Origin: Chloroflexota bacterium | GTDB taxonomy: Bacteria > Chloroflexota > Anaerolineae > Aggregatilineales > Phototrophicaceae | Assembly (NCBI GenBank): GCA_003695675.1 | Contig: RFIA01000026.1 | Span: 1-55,626 of the forward strand | Reading direction: 5' to 3' | DNA length: 55,626 bases | Part shown: positions 10,976 through 25,019 of the stretch, one piece after another | Layout: the number at the start of each line of letters is the position of its first letter | How positions within the stretch are numbered: position 1 is the first letter of the stretch | Notes under the pieces: model-generated | The model's database searches: none | What the model was told of the DNA's origin: nothing | What the model saw: the letters and a program-made list of their open reading frames with translations, nothing else | Position numbers and translations under genes: made by a program

Positions 10976-12124
10976 TCAGGCTGGGAAAATCGGCAACAGG
11001 CTGACATCGCCGCGCACGAGCGCGAAATTGCGATTAATCCAGCCGCGCCCGAACTGACCTTCGACGAGCAGCCAAACACCATCGCCCGCCCGCCCGATGA
11101 CATCCACGCTTGAACCACCAGGCAACGAGGTGACAACCGACCATTGCACACCCGGCCCACTGCGGATATTGAGGCGTCCGGTATTGATGATCGCTTCCGG
11201 TGTGGCCGGTGCGGGGCGTGTGCCCCCGAAGCTGTCGTTGATAATCGGGACGACGCCGACGTCGCCGCGCACAAGTGTGAAGTTGCGATTGACCCAACCG
11301 CGTCCGAAATTTCCCCTGACTAACAACCACACGCCGTCATCCGCAATGCCGATCACGCGCAAAGTTGTCCCGCCAATCACCGATGTGACGATGCTGAATT
11401 GCACGCCCGGCCCACTGCGAATATTCAATTGCCCGGTGTTGACGACCGCTTCGACCCGCGCAGGTGCTGCCGACCGACCGGTCGCAATCTCAATATCGCG
11501 GATGATGGGCAGCAGGCCGATGTCTCCGCGCACGAGTGTCAATGTACTGTTGAGCCAGCCGCGCCCGAAACGGCCTTCGACCAACAACCACACATTATCA
11601 TTGGCGCGACCAACGACATTCAAGCGCGTGCCGCCAACCACCGATGTGATGATTCTGAATTCGATGCCCGGCCCACGACGGATGTTCAAGCGTGCTGTAT
11701 TGACGACGACTTCAACACCGGCGGCTTGTGGTATCACGCCCGCCGCGCCCGGTGCAGGGGCTGCGCCCGGCGGTGGAGGCGGGGGTGGTAATGCCGGTCG
11801 TGGCACAACCGGCGCATTGGCGAGGGTGCCGCGCACTGTGGTGAAAAGCGCGTTCACCCAACCCGGCCCAGCCGTCGTCGAAACCTGAAACCAAACCCCA
11901 TCGCCAATTTGCGCGATGACTGGCAGTGGCGTCCCGCGTGGCACACTGAACATCACCGGGAATTCAAAACCCGGCCCAGTACGTACATTGAGCACATCGC
12001 TGTTGACGACAAGTATCGGTTGTTGCAATTGCGCGGTCGGCGCGGCGGCGGCGATACTCGCGCTGAGCACTGTGATGATGAGAAGCAAAATGAAAATGAA
12101 TGCGACATTGCGATTTAATTTCAT
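10976..12124 (-). CDS. Secreted protein with four SH3b domains
   Basis: This 382-residue exported protein starts with a signal peptide (MKLNRNVAFIF then a hydrophobic core and ASIAAAA, cleavage near residue 28). Four bacterial SH3 (SH3b) repeats follow at about 38-98, 138-199, 225-286 and 312-373. Each carries LN(V/I)R-x-GPG near its start and a GW(V/L/I)N near its end. Repeats 2-4 are much more alike than repeat 1, pointing to recent duplication. A Pro/Gly/Ala-rich linker (107-135) separates repeat 1 from the rest. SH3b domains bind cell-wall peptides or other extracellular ligands; no catalytic domain is present. ATG 12124 is chosen for the signal peptide and the GGGGGA upstream. Confidence 0.88.
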   Translation of the reverse strand: MKLNRNVAFIFILLLIITVLSASIAAAAPTAQLQQPILVVNSDVLNVRTGPGFEFPVMFSVPRGTPLPVIAQIGDGVWFQVSTTAGPGWVNALFTTVRGTLANAPVVPRPALPPPPPPPGAAPAPGAAGVIPQAAGVEVVVNTARLNIRRGPGIEFRIITSVVGGTRLNVVGRANDNVWLLVEGRFGRGWLNSTLTLVRGDIGLLPIIRDIEIATGRSAAPARVEAVVNTGQLNIRSGPGVQFSIVTSVIGGTTLRVIGIADDGVWLLVRGNFGRGWVNRNFTLVRGDVGVVPIINDSFGGTRPAPATPEAIINTGRLNIRSGPGVQWSVVTSLPGGSSVDVIGRAGDGVWLLVEGQFGRGWINRNFALVRGDVSLLPIFPA

Positions 12125-12260
12125 AAGTCCCCCGGCATAAACTTCAAGAACGTTGTTTTCTATCGTTAAGTGTATCATCTTGTGACGAATTCGGCAGCAC
12201 GATTCGGTATATTTTAAGGCTTGCACAGATGTGTATGTTTGGGAGAAAAGCGAAAAGATT

Positions 12261-14541: not shown

Positions 14542-15210
14542 GTGACTAAGTTACCCAAACCCCTCAAATTATCGATATTTTTGTTGTTTTTCGCGGCGGG
14601 TTGTAGTGCCTTGCCCGGTTTGCGAGTCATCACCGGCGAAGATACGCAAGACGATAGCCTCGCGGCACAAGCTATTGAAAATATCGATCTCGTCATGGCC
14701 GACAAAACTGGCTCGACTGACCCCTCGATTATCCGCGCTGCTGACCGGATCGAAGCAGCGTTGCGTGGTTTTGACATCATCGAAATTCGCAACAACCCGG
14801 TAACACACGAATTCACCGTCAATGCTATGAACGACCCTCGTGTGCCTATCGCTAGTATGGATGACCTACGCCGTATGATTGAACTCACATGGCGCGGCAC
14901 CCTCAGCGAAAGCGAAGGCAGCGATAAGCTGAATATCACCATTCTCAGCCCGATTGAAGTCAACACCCTAGATCGCGGTTCGAGTATCATCGGTCAAGTG
15001 TTGTTTAATGTGGAGATTGCCCGTTCCGACGCGGTTGTGTATCTCTCGAATGGGCCGAATATCAACGATTTCATCGGTATGATTCTCGACGAGACGATGA
15101 CCTTTAACCAACCGCAAACCCTCCAAATCTATCGCGGCAATCCCAATCATCCGATGTTTGCTTTGCCCGATACCAGCAATATCCCCAATCTTGCCGATTT
15201 TACCGGGTAA
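14542..15210 (+). CDS. Putative lipoprotein of unknown function
   Basis: This 222-residue protein has a lipoprotein signal: positive N-terminus (KLPKPLK), hydrophobic core and lipobox FAAG-C with Cys21. The mature part begins with helices (SLAAQAIENIDLVMADKTG) and later has an alternating strand region (DKLNITILSPIEVNTLDRGSSIIG, residues about 133-156). It has no family I recognise. GTG 14542 has AAGGA eight bases upstream. The gene precedes two FtsH-like proteases by 95 bases on the same strand and probably shares their transcript, so it may be an envelope partner or client of them. That link rests on position only. After anchoring by Lgt (a candidate is at 50412) it would face the outside of the membrane. 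Confidence 0.65.
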   Translation: MTKLPKPLKLSIFLLFFAAGCSALPGLRVITGEDTQDDSLAAQAIENIDLVMADKTGSTDPSIIRAADRIEAALRGFDIIEIRNNPVTHEFTVNAMNDPRVPIASMDDLRRMIELTWRGTLSESEGSDKLNITILSPIEVNTLDRGSSIIGQVLFNVEIARSDAVVYLSNGPNINDFIGMILDETMTFNQPQTLQIYRGNPNHPMFALPDTSNIPNLADFTG

Positions 15211-15305
15211 GTGCTAATTGCTTGCATGTTCATGTCCGCCCGGCACTGTACCGTCTTGTAACACACACCGGGCTTATCGAGAAAATATTTTTACAGGATG
15301 AAGCT

Positions 15306-17189
15306 ATGAGTTTAGCCAAACGAGAACCCAGTCCCAATCTATCGAACGAACCGCCACGCCAACGTTTCGCGTGGGAAGACGAGGCGACTTTAGTCGACGA
15401 GCGGCGTAAGCTGAGCAATCGTATCAAACGATTGCCGTTCAAACGTCTCATCTTGTTAGCGCTCATCTTTTGGGCATTGGCAGATGCCGATGTCATGCGG
15501 GCGGTATTAGCTGGTTTGGGATGGGCGCTGCCGTTCGTCGGACGTTTCTTGTTCATCGGCGCATTCATCATCGGGCAGTTCGGGCTGATGTTTTGGTTTC
15601 TTGGCCGGGCGCGGATGTATACCATCTGGCCGGGTTCGGAAGCCGAGGGGGTGAGCTTTGCGGATTATCGCGGGCAACCGGAATTGCTCGAACAAGCACG
15701 CCAAATCGTGACGCTGCTGCGCGGTGTCAAAGCGTTTGAAGACGCCGGTGGTGAGCCGTTACACGGCTTACTGCTCGAAGGCCCGCCCGGCACCGGCAAA
15801 ACTTGGTTAGCACAGGCGATTAGCACCGAAGCCGGTGTGCCCTTCTTCTATATTGATGCGTCGGGCATGACATCGATGTTCTTCGGCATCGCCCCGCTCA
15901 AAGTGATGAACCTGTATCGCAAAGCACGCAGCGCCGCCAACGATTACGGCGCGTCCATCATCTTCATCGATGAGGTGGACGCGGTTGGCTCTCGCGGCGG
16001 GGTGGCGCAAAAACGTGAGACCTATCGAGAAGACGAAATCATCGACGATGCGACGGTGGGCAGTTGGTTTTCGCGCCTGCCGATTATGTTCGGTGGCATG
16101 GGCGGCGCGAATCTCGGTTTGCTCAGCACGCTGCTGGTTGAGATGAGCGGCTTCAGCCAAGAGCATGGCTGGATGGCGCGTAAGAAGCGCTGGTTCTACA
16201 ACACTTTCCTGCGGCGCGACCCACCGCCCCCCAACAATCGCGTGTTGACGATTGGCGCGACCAATCGCATCGAAGCGCTCGACCAAGCCTTGCTGCGTCC
16301 GGGACGGTTCGACAAAAAGATTCGGGTTGACGCGCCCGACCTCGAAGGCCGCCGCGACATCTTTGAATATTACCTGTCGAAGATGGCGCATGACGACAGC
16401 ATGGATCCATTGATTCTCGCCGTCGAGACGCAATTCTACACCCCGGCGGACATCAAGTATCTGCTCAACGAGGCACTGCGCTATGCGCTCTTTGATGGCC
16501 GCACGTATATGACCTATCGCGATTTCAAATTGGCGCAGCCGGAGCACGAGATGGGTTTGCGCACGCCGATCAAGAATCTGACTTACGAGGCGAAATATCG
16601 CTTGGCAGCCCACGAAGCCGGTCATGCGATGGCGGTGCGCATGTTCATGCCCGACCATCGTATCTCCCGCATCACAATTATCCAACAGGGTTTTGCGTTG
16701 GGTCATGTGAGCCACATGCCCGCCACCGAAAATTATCAGTATATTCGCACTTATGAAGAGTTGCATAATCATCTGCGCGTGGCCGTTGCAGGCAAAGCGG
16801 GTGAAATGGAATTCGCCGGTGAAGATCAACAAACACTCGGTGTCGCCGGGGACTTCGCTTCTATTCGCGCTGTGCTAGGGCAGATGGGGCGCGCCGGTAT
16901 GTTTGGGCCAATGGGTATGTTTGACGAACCGGAGGCCAGCAAGGAAATCCGGCAGATGATGGAAGAGACTTTTTTGCAGGCGCTAGAAGAAGTGCGGTTG
17001 GCATTTCGTGCGCATCACGAGATGGGTGAGGCGCTCATCACATTGTTGATGGAAAAAGATGAGTTGCTGTCCGATGAAGTCGAAGCCTTTTTCGACCAAT
17101 ATGGTTTCTTCACGCCGAAGGTGCATTTGCTTGAAGAGCAAGACAAGGCAGGGGCTGTCATTCGCGATGATGTTCCTGAGCTTGAGTAA
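15306..17189 (+). CDS. FtsH-like membrane AAA metalloprotease, copy 1
   Basis: This 627-residue protein has the order of FtsH: two N-terminal membrane segments (about 47-60 and 80-100), an AAA+ ATPase and an M41 peptidase domain. Walker A GPPGTGKT is at 159-166, Walker B IIFIDEVD at 218-225, pore-loop aromatic in MFFG (191-194), SRH arginines in LRPGRFD (330-336), zinc site HEAGH at 436-440 and a third-ligand candidate Asp516 in GVAGDF. All catalytic residues are kept, so an active ATP-driven membrane protease is likely. Two departures stand out: the loop between the membrane segments is about 20 residues rather than the usual 70, and an insertion of about 30 basic/aromatic residues (285-311) sits between Walker B and sensor 1. 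ATG 15306 is preferred, with AGGATGA upstream, over an upstream in-frame start. Confidence 0.88.
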   Translation: MSLAKREPSPNLSNEPPRQRFAWEDEATLVDERRKLSNRIKRLPFKRLILLALIFWALADADVMRAVLAGLGWALPFVGRFLFIGAFIIGQFGLMFWFLGRARMYTIWPGSEAEGVSFADYRGQPELLEQARQIVTLLRGVKAFEDAGGEPLHGLLLEGPPGTGKTWLAQAISTEAGVPFFYIDASGMTSMFFGIAPLKVMNLYRKARSAANDYGASIIFIDEVDAVGSRGGVAQKRETYREDEIIDDATVGSWFSRLPIMFGGMGGANLGLLSTLLVEMSGFSQEHGWMARKKRWFYNTFLRRDPPPPNNRVLTIGATNRIEALDQALLRPGRFDKKIRVDAPDLEGRRDIFEYYLSKMAHDDSMDPLILAVETQFYTPADIKYLLNEALRYALFDGRTYMTYRDFKLAQPEHEMGLRTPIKNLTYEAKYRLAAHEAGHAMAVRMFMPDHRISRITIIQQGFALGHVSHMPATENYQYIRTYEELHNHLRVAVAGKAGEMEFAGEDQQTLGVAGDFASIRAVLGQMGRAGMFGPMGMFDEPEASKEIRQMMEETFLQALEEVRLAFRAHHEMGEALITLLMEKDELLSDEVEAFFDQYGFFTPKVHLLEEQDKAGAVIRDDVPELE

Positions 17190-17222
17190 TCACAAGTAAT
17201 CGATAATAGAACTGAGATTAAG

Positions 17223-19079
17223 ATGACTATTGAGCACAGTTCACAGCCAAAAGAACGCTTCTACTGGGAATCTGAACAGACCCTCGTCGATCAATATAAT
17301 CGACCATCGAAACGAATCAAACGTTTTCTGCGTCGCCGCAAGTTTTCGTTGATCTTCTTGGCGATTGTTTTCGTCCTTCTTTCGAATGCCAGTTTGATGC
17401 GTGGCTTCTTGTCAATCGCGGAAACACTGGTGACGATCATTCTGTTCATGTTAATTTTCGTCTCGCAGTTTGTTTTGCTGTTTTGGTTTCTCAGTCGTTC
17501 GCGGCAATACACGATTATGCCCGGCACGAAGGGTATCAGCTTCAAAGATTATCGCGGGCAACCCGAAATCCTCGAACAAGCGCAGCAAGTCGTCACCTTA
17601 TTGCGCGGCGTCAAGGCTTATGAAAATGCCGGTGGTGAGCCGCTTTCTGGCTTATTGCTCGAAGGCCCGCCCGGCACCGGCAAGACATGGCTGGCACAAG
17701 CCATCAGCACGGAGGCCGGTGTCCCCTTCCTATATATGGACGCTTCTGGCTTGCAAGCGATGTTCATCGGTGTTGGCCCGATGAAAGTCATGCGTTTGTA
17801 TGGCAAAGCACGCAAACTCGCCAAAGAATATGGCGCGGCGGTCATCTTCCTCGACGAAATCGATGCGATTGGCTCGCGCGGCACCGTTGCCTCGGTGAAT
17901 GAAGATATTACCCAAGAGCGAGATGGTATGTTCGGTGGTGGCATGACCGGCGGCATGGGCGTACTCAGCACGATGCTGATTGAAATGAGCGGCTTCAGCC
18001 AAGTGCATGGTTGGCGTGCGCGTCTGCGGTCATGGTTCTATAAGACTTTCCTGCGCCGCAAACCGCCGAAGCCCGAAAAGCGTGTCCTCACCATTGGCGC
18101 GACGAACCGTGTGCAATCACTTGACCCGGCTATCTTGCGTCCGGGACGTTTCGACAAAAAGATTCGTGTCGATGTGCCCGATATGGCGGGGCGCCGCGAC
18201 ATTTTTGAATATTATCTGAGCAAATATGCGCATGATGAAACGATGGATCCGTTGATTTTAGCGACCGAGACGCCCGGTTACTCACCGGCGGACATCAAGT
18301 ACCTGCTCAATGAATCGCTGCGTCACGCTTTCTTTGACGGGCGCGACGTCATCACCTACGATGACTTTATGTATGCGAAACCCGAACATGAGGTTGGCAT
18401 TCGTGCCCCACTGAAGCACATGGCCGAAGAATCACGCTATCGCCTAGCTGTGCATGAGGCCGGTCATGCGGTTGCTGTGCGCCTGTTCCAACCCCATCAT
18501 CGGATCACACGCATCACGATTATTCGGCAAGGACGTGCTTTCGGTTATGTACAACATTACCCGGCGCGGGAAGCGTATCGCGGTTTACACACACGCGATG
18601 AACTGCTCGATTATGTGCGGGTATCGATTGCCGGTAAAGCAGCCGAAATCGAATTCTGCGGGATCGAAAATCAGACGCTCGGTGTGGCCGGAGACTTCAG
18701 ACAAATCGAAGGCATCTTGAGCGCGATGGCGAATGCTGGTATGTTCGGTACGATGGGCGCAACGATGGGTGTACAACTTGATCTTATGAAAGGCGCACGA
18801 ATCAAATGGACGAGAGAGCAAGCACAAGCCCTTGAAGAAGCCTATCAACAAGTGTTATCGGAAGTTCGTGTCGCGCTTCGAGAACACGCACACATCATGG
18901 ATGCACTGGTCGAACATTTGTTGAAAGTCGAAGAAATGAACGCCGATGAAGTCCGTGCTTTCTTCGACCAATACGGTTTGCACACACCCGACCCCAGTTA
19001 CATTCGCGATGGCGAGGAAATCAAGCTGTTCCCGAAAGATGGGGAGACGCCACAACTCGAAGCCGAGTCCGGCGACTGA
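17223..19079 (+). CDS. FtsH-like membrane AAA metalloprotease, copy 2
   Basis: This 618-residue paralogue of the preceding gene begins 33 bases after it. Membrane segments lie at about 41-55 and 67-90. Walker A GPPGTGKT is at 148-155, Walker B VIFLDEID at 206-213, the pore motif MFIG at 180-183, SRH LRPGRFD at 305-311, HEAGH at 411-415 and Asp491 in GVAGDF. The same insertion after the MSGFSQ motif is present (259-286), so it predates the duplication. The N-terminal region before the membrane segments is short and ends in a very basic patch (KRIKRFLRRRK). The pair could form hetero-hexamers, as known for mitochondrial and plant FtsH pairs (analogy). The transcript ends at the terminator 19109-19140. 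Confidence 0.88.
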   Translation: MTIEHSSQPKERFYWESEQTLVDQYNRPSKRIKRFLRRRKFSLIFLAIVFVLLSNASLMRGFLSIAETLVTIILFMLIFVSQFVLLFWFLSRSRQYTIMPGTKGISFKDYRGQPEILEQAQQVVTLLRGVKAYENAGGEPLSGLLLEGPPGTGKTWLAQAISTEAGVPFLYMDASGLQAMFIGVGPMKVMRLYGKARKLAKEYGAAVIFLDEIDAIGSRGTVASVNEDITQERDGMFGGGMTGGMGVLSTMLIEMSGFSQVHGWRARLRSWFYKTFLRRKPPKPEKRVLTIGATNRVQSLDPAILRPGRFDKKIRVDVPDMAGRRDIFEYYLSKYAHDETMDPLILATETPGYSPADIKYLLNESLRHAFFDGRDVITYDDFMYAKPEHEVGIRAPLKHMAEESRYRLAVHEAGHAVAVRLFQPHHRITRITIIRQGRAFGYVQHYPAREAYRGLHTRDELLDYVRVSIAGKAAEIEFCGIENQTLGVAGDFRQIEGILSAMANAGMFGTMGATMGVQLDLMKGARIKWTREQAQALEEAYQQVLSEVRVALREHAHIMDALVEHLLKVEEMNADEVRAFFDQYGLHTPDPSYIRDGEEIKLFPKDGETPQLEAESGD

Positions 19080-19108
19080 CAATCGCGGAGCAAGTCTTCA
19101 GTAACAGC

Positions 19109-19140
19109 AACACCCTGTCCATAGCGGCAGGGTGTTTTAT
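19109..19140 (+). terminator. Rho-independent terminator of the FtsH-like operon
   Basis: AACACCCTG (19109-19117) pairs perfectly with CAGGGTGTT (19128-19136) around a 10-base loop and runs into TTTTATT. It ends the lipoprotein-protease transcript. Confidence 0.8.
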
Positions 19141-21036: not shown

Positions 21037-22257
21037 TTATCGCGGTTTCTGGGCTGATACGAGAAACTCGTATAATTCTTTCTTAGAGTTTCGTTTTCTA
21101 ATCGTTTTGATTTGTACATCAATAAAGCCGTGTTGTTCCATCAAATCGGCATAAATTTGTTCAACCGGGACAAGTGTATCGTAAAACTTTGAGTTGCCGA
21201 TAATATAATAGAGCTTACCACCCGGTTTAACGACTTGATTGAGATTCGCAAAATGCGCTGCTATGTCTGCAAAATACTTATGCACATAGCGGCTCAAGAC
21301 TTCACTCGACTGTGCAATTTCATCAACAATCGACTTGAGTTGCGGTATGTTGTCAGCCGTATCGTCTGGCTGCCAGTCATTGAGTCTGCTTGTTGCGATG
21401 CCCCACGTCCCGCCGATAGCTTGCCAGTCAAGTTCTCCGGCTTCTCGTGCTTTTTTCAAATATCCCAACCAATACATATAGGGGCGCAGCTCACGAATAT
21501 AACTCATGCGATTCACATAAGGCGGCGATGTGATAACCGCGTCATACCGCTTATCTCCATTAAGCATTACCTGACGCGAATCATGCAAGAAAACATTGAT
21601 TATCCCTGTTATTGCTTCATTGGCAGCTTGCGATATTCTCGTCACATCGTCGAGAAAACTTTGATAGATAGTCTCTTCTTCATCAAACATTTGCAGTTGA
21701 TGCACAGCTTTTTTGAACGACATAGATTGATGATTAAACGCTGCGTTCGACCATCGCATAATAAGACGGCAAAAGGCAATCAACAACAAATCTTTTTCGG
21801 GTGATGGGGTCGGGAATTCTTGATGCAGCACATGAAATATCTTGCTCAATGTGTGCAAACGGCCATCAGACCACCACCGTTCAATATGATTAATTGGCGG
21901 TTGCCACAAGTCGTTTTCGTGATGCAATTCTTTAGCCTGTTCGAGAATCACACTTGCGGCCTCGCGCATTCGCTTCAATTGCTCTGTTTCGTAGTTGGCG
22001 CATTTGACCCGTGCCAGCCATACCAGAAAAGGATTGATGTCGAGCAAATCACACTGCAATCCACTTTGCGCGGCGACCAACCCAGTTGTGCCGGTGCCTG
22101 AAAATGGCTCCAAGATCGATTGAATGTTTGGATTTTCGATCAGAATCTGCTGGACAATTTTCACCGAATAGGCGGGAGTCAGCCGCACCCAGCCATGCCT
22201 GCCGCGTTTCACATTATCTTTAAATGTCAAGTCAGCGCGTTGCTTATTCGGCATCAT
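21037..22257 (-). CDS. DNA methyltransferase of an R-M pair (amino-MTase type)
   Basis: This 406-residue protein has the motifs of exocyclic-amino DNA methyltransferases. A motif X-like HGWVRLTPAYSV lies at 21-32, the SAM-binding motif I ILEPFSGTGTTGL at 48-60, DLLDINP (motif II) after it, and the catalytic motif IV TSPPY at 243-247. TSPPY is typical of N4-cytosine enzymes, though N6-adenine cannot be excluded. About 180 residues between motifs I and IV probably hold the target-recognition region. Its ATGATG start overlaps the last 14 bases of the upstream nuclease-like gene, so the two are coupled. It would protect host DNA from that nuclease. Confidence 0.85.
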   Translation of the reverse strand: MMPNKQRADLTFKDNVKRGRHGWVRLTPAYSVKIVQQILIENPNIQSILEPFSGTGTTGLVAAQSGLQCDLLDINPFLVWLARVKCANYETEQLKRMREAASVILEQAKELHHENDLWQPPINHIERWWSDGRLHTLSKIFHVLHQEFPTPSPEKDLLLIAFCRLIMRWSNAAFNHQSMSFKKAVHQLQMFDEEETIYQSFLDDVTRISQAANEAITGIINVFLHDSRQVMLNGDKRYDAVITSPPYVNRMSYIRELRPYMYWLGYLKKAREAGELDWQAIGGTWGIATSRLNDWQPDDTADNIPQLKSIVDEIAQSSEVLSRYVHKYFADIAAHFANLNQVVKPGGKLYYIIGNSKFYDTLVPVEQIYADLMEQHGFIDVQIKTIRKRNSKKELYEFLVSAQKPR

Positions 22258-23080
22258 CGGCCCGTAACAGACTCTCTAAAACCTCTTGGATAAATTGGCT
22301 CAACCGCTCACTGTTTCGCTCAAAGAACGCCGCAAGATCATATCCGATAACTTCTCGGGCGAACGTGTAAGTCGACGATAGATCATCGCCCGCGACAGAG
22401 CCACGAAGGACAAGCCATTTACCACGTTGATAGCGCTCAACAATATCATAATCGATTTGTGTCGAAAGCACGACGAGAACCGGCAGGTAACCTTTTGTAT
22501 AGGCTTCGGCGGCATTCGCCATATCTGCGTTTTGACGTTTTGAATCTTTACTCTTGTAGCCTTGCCGAACTTCCATCACCATACCGCGCATGGCATCGGC
22601 AACACGTTGTTCCAATTGAAGCGAATCGGCTACTTTTTGCATCCACAAGTTGACGATTTCTTTTCGCTCACTGTCCGCAATATGTTCCGGCTCAATCCGC
22701 CCGTCGAGTTTGAGGGTTCGTTTGCGACCGGTGTTCGTCATGATTCGATATGACCACCGCGATTGCTCATCGGTCAAGCCAAGGTGGTCTTGAAGAATTT
22801 GTCGAAAAAGTTCCTCGCCGCCGATGCCGATTTGTCGATAAACAGAGGTGATGCCACCCGCAGCTTTATGCGCAGCATACATCAATGGTGTATTCAATCC
22901 CAACCATGTATACAGTGGGTCGGCATTGTAAAGTGTCTGAAAGTCTTCCAGTGTAAACCCGTCGCCACCTTGCCCAAATTTTGGTCGATATGCTTTGCAT
23001 ACGGCGATACGGTCGAGCAAGATTTGCAAATACTGTTGATCGAATGAGGCGTCCACAAGCAGAACTATCCCTTGATACAA
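22244..23080 (-). CDS. Probable type II restriction endonuclease, ApaLI-like
   Basis: This 278-residue protein directly upstream of and overlapping a DNA methyltransferase is best explained as its cognate restriction enzyme. The segment VMEVRQGYKSKDSKRQNAD (168-186), followed by YTKGYLPVLVVLSTQID, resembles from memory the ApaLI-type endonuclease family; no search was possible. A PD-(D/E)xK-like core may include Glu170 and Arg172 or nearby Lys, but I cannot fix the catalytic set. The start is uncertain: an in-frame TAA lies three codons before TTG 23080, and no good ribosome-binding site is seen; GTG at residue 9 is an alternative. If the family is right, the target would be a short palindrome such as GTGCAC. 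Confidence 0.6.
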   Translation of the reverse strand: MYQGIVLLVDASFDQQYLQILLDRIAVCKAYRPKFGQGGDGFTLEDFQTLYNADPLYTWLGLNTPLMYAAHKAAGGITSVYRQIGIGGEELFRQILQDHLGLTDEQSRWSYRIMTNTGRKRTLKLDGRIEPEHIADSERKEIVNLWMQKVADSLQLEQRVADAMRGMVMEVRQGYKSKDSKRQNADMANAAEAYTKGYLPVLVVLSTQIDYDIVERYQRGKWLVLRGSVAGDDLSSTYTFAREVIGYDLAAFFERNSERLSQFIQEVLESLLRADDAE

Positions 23081-23102: not shown

Positions 23103-24908
23103 TCAACTCTCCACCGGCACAACGTTGAGGTCTGTGCTCGATTCCGGTGTGGCGAATTGAGCGCTGACCCAACCGACGACATTGTTAAAGCGGATGCGCC
23201 ACCAACTGTTGTCGAAGCTACGGGCGATCAGTTCTGCCGTGCGCCCGGCGGGGAATTGTCCGAGTACAGCAGTGCGCGTGCCCGGCCCCTCGCGGATGAT
23301 GACGGTCTCGTCGGCGCGAACGGTGAAGCCGGTTGGCGTCACAGCGGGACCGCTGCTTTGATTCGTCACCGGGACATTCTCAGTCCCCGTCACCTGTACG
23401 AGCGCATTGAACACCCAACCCATCGTGCCGTTGACATCGAGTTGCCACCACGTACTGTCGGCATTGCGCCCGACAATCGGGTACGTTTCGCCGCGTTCCA
23501 TCACCGTGAGGACATCGGATGAGGTATTCGGCGCGGAACGTAAATTGAGCCGCGCTGTGTTGACGGTCGCGAAGGCATTCGTCACCGCCGGTTGCCCAAC
23601 GGTCGATGAGTCGCTCAGGCGATTGAAGCCGAAGTCAATGAAGGCTATGTCGAGCGCATCGAAATACTCGACGACAATTTGATGCTGCCCAGCCAACAGG
23701 TCTACCTCGACGATGTACGCCTGCCCCGTCGCCAGATGAAATTCGTTGATGACGGCGCGGCCATCGACCAACACGCGCACACCGTCGTCCGCCGTCGCCG
23801 TGAATTGATACGTCCCGCCTTCGAGTGTCGTGCTCAATGTCCAACGTGCCGAGAAATTGTTGATTGGAATCGTTGCGAGTGGCGAACTCGTGCCCCAATT
23901 GTGTGTCGGGCCGATTTCGACTTGTGTGAAGGTCGGTGCGCCATTCAGGGCCGGGTTCGACCAATATTCCGCCGTCCACAAATCGACATCGGTGGGGATG
24001 GTGTCTGAGTCTAAACGAAAGAGCGTGTAATCAATGAAAGCCTCGCCATTGTCCTCGAAATATTCAATCATGATATTGTGTGTCCCGGCGATGAAGTCTT
24101 GATTGAAAGTATACGTTTGCCCAGTGGCCTGATGAAATTCGTCGATGACGACGACACCGTTGACCGTCACACGCACGCCATCATCGGCGCGGACGGCGAT
24201 TTGATAACGCCCGGCTTCGAGAGTCTGCACACTCGTCCAACGCGCCGAGAAGCCATCTGCCGGGAGATTCGGCAAGGGCGCCCCCGTCCCCCACACATGC
24301 TTCGGGATTTCTTCGGCCATAATCGCCGATGGCGTGCCGGAAAGCCCGGCGTTGGCATAATACTGCGCCGTCCACACGCCATTATTGACCGGCACAGGTT
24401 GTGTCGGAATCGTGAAGTTCGGGCCGGTCGGATTGGTGGCGAGATTTTGCCAATCGACGAATATACCGGCATCGCCGGAGTCTTCGCGATAATCGACCTG
24501 AATGTGGTGAGTCCCGCCGGTAAGGGTGATGTCCGCCGTGATGACTTGTCCCGGTTGTGGCGCACTGAAGGTGTCGATCAGGGGTTGAAAAGCGAAGTCG
24601 ATGTTGATGCGGGCGGCATCATCGGCCAACATGAAGAAGCGATACGTCCCCGCTTCAAAGAAGACATCCGTCCCCCATCGCGCCGAGAAATTGTCGCTGT
24701 TCACAGCCGGGTCGGGCGAACCCGTGCCCCACTGATAACCGATGCCGATCTCTTGGCGTTGCAACACGGGGTCTCCAGATAAGAATTGATTGTTGAAGTA
24801 GGCTGCGCTCCAAACGACATCGTTTTGTGCGGCGGCGAATTGCACGGCGAATGTCGCCAGCGCGAGGATCGATAACCATACGATGAAGACAAATTTTGTG
24901 CGAAGCAT
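23103..24908 (-). CDS. Secreted protein with three PA14-like and two SH3b domains
   Basis: This 601-residue exported protein has a signal peptide (MLRTKFVFIVW core, cleavage after AAA near residue 27). Three PA14-like beta-barrel repeats follow at about 31-155, 178-298 and 309-430. Each has an aromatic YF/YY start, a WGTG or WGTS motif, FSARW, ADD(G/A)-(V/A)R in the middle and an H-(H/N/Q)-I-x-(V/I)-(D/E)-Y end. Repeats 2 and 3 are closest. Two SH3b domains occupy about 447-507 and 527-586. PA14 modules often bind carbohydrates in a calcium-dependent way and SH3b bind wall peptides, so an adhesin or surface scaffold is likely. AGGAGG precedes ATG 24908. Function beyond binding is not readable. 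Confidence 0.85.
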   Translation of the reverse strand: MLRTKFVFIVWLSILALATFAVQFAAAQNDVVWSAAYFNNQFLSGDPVLQRQEIGIGYQWGTGSPDPAVNSDNFSARWGTDVFFEAGTYRFFMLADDAARINIDFAFQPLIDTFSAPQPGQVITADITLTGGTHHIQVDYREDSGDAGIFVDWQNLATNPTGPNFTIPTQPVPVNNGVWTAQYYANAGLSGTPSAIMAEEIPKHVWGTGAPLPNLPADGFSARWTSVQTLEAGRYQIAVRADDGVRVTVNGVVVIDEFHQATGQTYTFNQDFIAGTHNIMIEYFEDNGEAFIDYTLFRLDSDTIPTDVDLWTAEYWSNPALNGAPTFTQVEIGPTHNWGTSSPLATIPINNFSARWTLSTTLEGGTYQFTATADDGVRVLVDGRAVINEFHLATGQAYIVEVDLLAGQHQIVVEYFDALDIAFIDFGFNRLSDSSTVGQPAVTNAFATVNTARLNLRSAPNTSSDVLTVMERGETYPIVGRNADSTWWQLDVNGTMGWVFNALVQVTGTENVPVTNQSSGPAVTPTGFTVRADETVIIREGPGTRTAVLGQFPAGRTAELIARSFDNSWWRIRFNNVVGWVSAQFATPESSTDLNVVPVES

Positions 24909-24996
24909 GACGCCTCCTTCCTTAATTTGATGAATAGAGGATTCGATGTGCAATGAACAGTCTGTCCTAGAATCCAGTATAGCATTAGACGCAAAA

Positions 24997-25019
24997 GGGC
25001 ACAGCAACTGTGCCCCTAC
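24997..25019. repeat. Family A palindromic repeat
   Basis: GGGCACAG (24997-25004) pairs with CTGTGCCC (25008-25015), then CTAC. The following TGTGCCCCTACGAAAG is shared with the copy at 41737. Confidence 0.7.

Follow-up and report, generated by a model that had tools for sequence, protein, structure and literature searches.

A conserved gene trio of a lipoprotein and two FtsH-like membrane AAA+ proteases in Chloroflexota

Why would a bacterium with a full set of canonical FtsH proteases carry two further FtsH-like proteases side by side behind a lipoprotein gene, and do the three products act together? The question is raised by a window of 55,626 nucleotides, which is the whole stretch of DNA that was analysed (contig RFIA01000026.1 of a Chloroflexota bacterium). 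At positions 14542-19136 of its plus strand, a lipoprotein gene, protease A and protease B follow one another and are closed by a strong terminator (fold z-score of the hairpin, -3.5). The lipoprotein gene and A are separated by 95 bases, A and B by 33 bases. The start of A was taken as the ATG at 15306; the mechanical open reading frame begins at the TTG at 15222. Thus, the locus contains, as originally predicted, two closely spaced paralogous AAA/M41 proteases with intact motifs downstream of a lipoprotein of no known family. The terminator had been called perfect; it is nearly so, with one G-U pair. The parts of the locus are the following:

14542..15210, plus strand: lipoprotein gene (222 aa, GTG start), without a match in Pfam or NCBIfam
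14602..14640, plus strand: lipidated Cys and conserved juxtamembrane segment CSxLPGLRVLTG (mature residues 1-13, from column conservation)
15306..17189, plus strand: protease A (627 aa), with TM hairpin, AAA domain and M41 domain
15981..16256, plus strand: enlarged Walker B-to-sensor-1 interval of A, with a loop rich in Gly/Met and, ahead of sensor 1, a basic segment
16611..16625, plus strand: HEAGH zinc site of A (motif reading)
17223..19079, plus strand: protease B (618 aa), with TM hairpin, AAA domain and M41 domain
17349..17492, plus strand: two-helix membrane hairpin of B, without extracytoplasmic domain (hydropathy, model)
17865..18098, plus strand: enlarged Walker B-to-sensor-1 interval of B (interval measurement)
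18453..18467, plus strand: HEAGH zinc site of B, intact in the window and destroyed in 14 of 33 orthologues
19109..19136, plus strand: intrinsic terminator hairpin of 11 pairs, one of them G-U, followed by a T-rich stretch

Proteases A and B compared with canonical FtsH

Proteases A and B are paralogues that are about 57-60% identical. Pfam recognises an AAA and a Peptidase_M41 domain in each of them, and Walker A (GPPGTGKT), Walker B, the SRH with its arginine fingers, the HEAGH motif and the Asp that serves as third zinc ligand are intact in both. An AAA domain with Walker A/B and SRH that is followed by an M41 domain with HExxH and the third Asp ligand, together with two N-terminal TM helices (seen in hydropathy and in the model), places the pair in the FtsH-like superfamily of M41 AAA+ membrane proteases. 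The two-TM anchor at the N-terminus, the AAA motor with Walker A/B and SRH and the C-terminal M41 zinc protease are shared with canonical FtsH (TIGR01241; E. coli FtsH, PDB 3kds, 7tdo, 7wi4). Moreover, the FtsH structure 3kds is the closest to the predicted model of B (Z 26.1), which is weak over the AAA domain (mean pLDDT 61).

However, the pair differs from canonical FtsH in several respects. Against TIGR01241, the NCBIfam equivalog model of FtsH, A and B score 251.7 and 279.4 bits, which is below the curated cut-off of 600. The genome contains five M41 genes, of which three encode canonical FtsHs on other contigs (M41 scores of 244-248 bits, versus 80 and 53 bits for the pair). Thus, a normal ftsH does exist elsewhere in the genome, and the expectation that ordinary FtsH is usually single fails here because there are three copies. 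Similarly, most members of the subfamily to which the pair belongs reach M41 scores of about 48-117 bits, whereas the canonical FtsHs of the same genomes score about 150-250. FtsH_ext (PF06480) is matched in all three canonical FtsHs of the genome, in one of them just at the cut-off, while the Pfam profile search gave no match to it in A, B or the member from Thermomicrobium roseum. The two hydrophobic segments lie roughly 2-25 residues apart, compared with about 90-110 in most canonical FtsHs, which bears out the earlier remark that the extracytoplasmic loop of ordinary FtsH is longer. Furthermore, the interval between Walker B and sensor 1 spans 65-91 residues in 56 subfamily members and 39-41 in 32 canonical FtsHs, including that of E. 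coli, and the two ranges do not overlap. In a tree of 90 proteins, built without the columns of this interval, a long branch (support 100) parts all canonical FtsHs from A, B and the other members, so the proteases do not fall inside ordinary FtsH; had they done so, this would have spoken against the original prediction.

The low TIGR01241 score, the missing FtsH_ext, the long interval and the position outside the canonical clade indicate that the pair is not an ordinary FtsH, from which it also differs by its fixed anchored neighbour and its local duplication. At the level of sequence, these comparisons show that A and B belong to a subfamily of membrane AAA+ zinc proteases that is found across Chloroflexota and is separate from canonical FtsH. 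As to local motifs, a Gly/Met-rich stretch replaces the canonical GLGGGHDEREQ within the interval, and a basic segment precedes sensor 1. In place of the canonical DGF motif, the window proteases have SGF and many single-copy members DPP.

Distribution, duplication and gene order

Relatives of protein B (E<=1e-95) were found in 128 of 400 sampled Chloroflexota genomes, nearly always as a single copy. The survey covered Chloroflexota and, beyond the phylum, plasmid and phage records, and some of the subfamily genomes are incomplete MAGs. Outside the family of the window, the relatives are 36-47% identical to B. Among 24 further genomes that were inspected, 23 combine a canonical FtsH with a low-scoring subfamily member; the 24th (G084) is a non-carrier. 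The T. roseum member (WP_012643090) is annotated only as 'AAA family ATPase', and its nearest matches in plasmid and phage records are 31-35% identical, most of the annotated ones being called FtsH. Thus, about a third of the sampled Chloroflexota genomes contain a protease family for which the open literature that was searched yielded no description; most subscription papers lie outside that search.

In the family of the window, 35 of 98 genomes are carriers, nearly all with two protease copies, and where a carrier has one protease match, as in a few cases, it lies at a contig end. The branch closest to the pair in the 90-protein tree (support 99) is a single-copy protease from a Chloroflexi MAG (L033), and directly upstream of it lies a lipoprotein gene whose product is 24% identical to that of the window. 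A and B are each monophyletic (100/99 and 98/92, respectively). Because the relatives are mostly single-copy and the L033 protease is the closest branch, the sequences place the origin of the pair in a local duplication within an older, phylum-wide, mostly single-copy subfamily, a point that was absent from the original prediction.

The three genes are inherited together. Among 41 relatives, the same eight carry both the lipoprotein and the proteases, and every contig that contains the complete trio, 28 in number among 35 carriers, has the lipoprotein gene first, then A, then B, all on the same strand. The lipoprotein was detected in 34 of the 35 carrier genomes, the contig of the 35th beginning inside A. 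In a class-wide sample of 396 genomes, it occurs in seven, namely six known carriers and the genome of L033; among the genomes searched, it is confined to those that carry the protease. A and B are always adjacent and co-inherited, and only one of them is present solely where contigs break. Had the genes not been neighbours in relatives, the idea of a functional trio would have suffered; the conserved order speaks for it.

Several loci deviate from or extend this arrangement. An adenylate/guanylate cyclase gene (DUF5939 plus cyclase) is inserted between A and B in one genome (G016, L034:11055-12977). At 21 of the roughly 33 loci from the window's family (e.g. L029:7900-9282), a VWA_CoxE gene lies within 800 bases downstream of B, and in seven of them an SRPBCC-like gene sits between the two. 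In the genome of the window, the VWA_CoxE orthologue (56% identical) is located away from the trio on another contig (C32). VWA proteins often partner AAA+ motors, and the VWA_CoxE protein may therefore be a fourth part of the system. Two single-copy relatives (L086:6991-9540 and L088:7024-9438) have a second M41 domain within the same chain, and HEAGH is present in each of the two domains; L086 is AAA-M41-M41 according to Pfam, and open reading frames of similar length (about 800-918 aa) occur in other genomes of their families (f67, f84). In Nonomuraea gerenzanensis (L116:4800-8631), a lipoprotein gene directly precedes a long AAA/M41-like open reading frame, which forms a long branch of unsure placement.

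Loss of the zinc site in protease B and the question of a mixed ring

Protease B has kept HEAGH in 19 of 33 readable genomes, including the window, and lost the site in the other 14, in which YQAGx, YFAGQ, YYASK, REAAK or REAGK is found instead. By comparison, HExxH is kept in 32 of the 33 readable copies of A. No genome has both sites dead, among those in which both are readable, and all dead B proteins have intact ATPase motifs. On a tree that was built without the HExxH columns, the dead state of B requires 6 changes, or 7 if loss only is allowed, and branches with good support dictate at least 5 (counted by hand). The mean identity of the AAA domain is 0.77 in dead B, 0.78 in intact B and 0.77 in A, whereas that of the M41 domain is 0.55 in dead B versus 0.63 in intact B and 0.64 in A. 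As read from these alignments, the pattern is that expected if selection maintained B as a motor subunit but not its ability to cut. The window pair, with both sites intact, retains the ancestral state. By itself, the asymmetry of seven losses in B versus one in A is not significant (p about 0.07), and the absence of double loss equals the chance expectation at these loss rates. The reciprocal case was also observed once (G444, L184): A reads HQVGH, the catalytic Glu being changed to Gln, and B is intact.

The repeated loss of the B site with the motor kept supports the earlier proposal of a heteromeric machine, the complex itself being what we infer. On balance, we lean towards the reading that A and B form a hetero-oligomeric membrane extraction protease that relies on the anchored neighbour to provide, in trans, its extracytoplasmic recognition domain. 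A and B would assemble into one mixed ring, in which protease-dead B subunits would be tolerated since A cuts. Because B is intact in 19 of the 33 genomes, the window's included, mixed rings are not required there. It seems rather unlikely, although it deserves serious attention, that A and B are separate homohexamers with different jobs, the dead B proteins being stand-alone membrane unfoldases. The retention of all ATPase motifs in dead B would suit such unfoldases, and two old, monophyletic lineages fit specialisation; however, the two genes are consistently found side by side and inherited together, and several independent losses of one and the same site would be borne more easily if a partner subunit still cuts.

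A mixed ring would have parallels in plants. Plastid FtsH12/FtsHi and Ycf2-FtsHi motor complexes combine FtsH-type subunits, some of which lack HExxH (PMC8197885, PMC8042743; PDB 8xkv, 8xqw). The likeness lies in the dead subunits there and the repeated loss of HExxH in B here, with the motor kept. However, the present system is bacterial, would consist of only two subunits in a putative mixed ring and has a lipoprotein neighbour; moreover, a subunit with an intact motor and without HExxH, as in FtsHi, is present in 14 of 33 orthologues and not in the window, where B reads HEAGH. The FtsH hetero-hexamers of cyanobacteria and thylakoids are canonical and have the extracytoplasmic domain, unlike the window pair, and we know of no fixed trio with a lipoprotein among them. 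They resemble the pair in having two paralogous subunits that derive from an old duplication (PMC3339871, PMC8047818). A wider reading, which we put forward tentatively and would not yet bet on, is that of a bacterial split FtsH: the protease would have given up the extracytoplasmic domain that FtsH has in its own chain and would rely on a separate outer-face partner of at least two unrelated types. In one family, the ring would have become a mixed A/B ring, within which B has repeatedly evolved into a pseudoprotease motor, the counterpart of plastid FtsHi. If this is true, Chloroflexota offer a natural series in which one two-subunit membrane protease either has both active sites or lacks one of them, through several independent losses, and both the number of active subunits that an FtsH-type ring needs and the role of a dead subunit become testable in bacteria. 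It would also follow that an FtsH-type machine can have its extracytoplasmic part detached and replaced by another.

Anchored partners and a possible mechanism

The lipobox of the window lipoprotein ends at Cys21, and a lipobox is present in 34 of the 34 orthologues read. Mean column conservation is 85% over mature residues 1-13, 80% over residues 28-52 and 58% over the folded domain; conservation is poor over the last 16 residues, which are predicted to be disordered. Since the most conserved parts are membrane-proximal, they may constitute a docking segment. The predicted model is of moderate quality (pLDDT 70), and no known structure matches it significantly, Foldseek against the PDB giving nothing under E 0.04, so the fold gives no hint of function. 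Three candidates from VIA-align were rejected because their scores lie in the range of chance matches: a protease prodomain-like fold (4hlb, the best, Z 7.6), a CamS-type sex-pheromone lipoprotein (Z 6.5) and the ring-building motif of FliF/EscJ (Z about 5).

In other Chloroflexota classes, the position of the lipoprotein gene is often occupied by something else. At 27 of 40 sampled loci, a protein with one TM helix is encoded directly upstream of the protease, for instance WP_012642861 in T. roseum. It has a conserved C-terminal domain with the motif YLxGQxxFDAxxMW...YIGGxxLxDGxxxYFYV...DGKI or more distant variants, and the main-set profile and one variant-set profile match each other in hhalign at E 3.5e-11. 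The protein has no Pfam match above cut-off and looks NTF2-like to the eye. A comparison of its profile with that of the lipoprotein by hhalign detected no homology (E 0.17); any relationship would be remote. Judged by their N-termini, a lipid anchor in one case and a basic N-terminus followed by a TM helix in the other, both types would expose a small domain on the outside of the membrane. The remaining 13 loci have no upstream partner, and because nine of them form one tree branch, not all members of the subfamily can depend on such a partner. The double-M41 proteins of L086 and L088 belong to this branch. At one locus (L099, G158), the partner gene is absent between the protease and a flanking neighbour that is shared with the related loci L078, L079, L109 and L110.

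These observations would fit the favoured hetero-oligomeric protease as follows. A short membrane hairpin takes the place of the extracytoplasmic domain of FtsH. As FtsH does, the ring would extract proteins that sit in the membrane or are attached to it, draw them into the cytoplasm and degrade them. The lipoprotein, whose lipid would hold it in the outer leaflet of that membrane, would dock via its conserved juxtamembrane segment and provide an extracytoplasmic recognition or gating domain that stands in for the missing FtsH_ext. In the other classes, the unrelated one-TM protein would do the job of the lipoprotein. Membrane proteins that steer an FtsH-type protease are known, namely YqgP of B. 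subtilis and YciM of E. coli (PMC7231995, PMC7157816). However, these are other proteins that act on canonical FtsH, and no search performed here revealed a sequence relation between them and the lipoprotein.

The lipoprotein had originally been thought of as adaptor or substrate, and it may be either. That it is a dedicated substrate or a regulated client, such as a sensor that the protease degrades, rather than a structural partner appears improbable to us: protease-substrate pairs can occupy one operon, and the disordered C-terminal tail resembles a possible degron, but conservation peaks near the membrane, as expected for docking, and the filling of the same position by unrelated anchored proteins in other classes fits a structural slot better. 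An ordinary duplicated FtsH without special function beside an unrelated lipoprotein gene, for which domain order and fold would speak, is very hard to reconcile with the separate clade, the missing FtsH_ext, the enlarged interval, the three canonical FtsHs in the genome and the gene order kept across genera. A role in anti-phage defence was likewise rejected, since the matches to AAA systems such as IetA in PADLOC do not exceed 84 bits and cover the AAA domain only, and the lipoprotein has no match.

As to the surroundings of the trio, a DNA methylase gene (N6_N4_Mtase) and an overlapping gene for a 278-aa protein without Pfam family, possibly a restriction-modification pair, lie on the minus strand of the window (21037-23080). 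A protein that looks secreted and has three PA14 and two SH3 domains is encoded at 23103-25007 of the same strand. A second SH3-repeat protein is encoded at 10976-12226, also on the minus strand.
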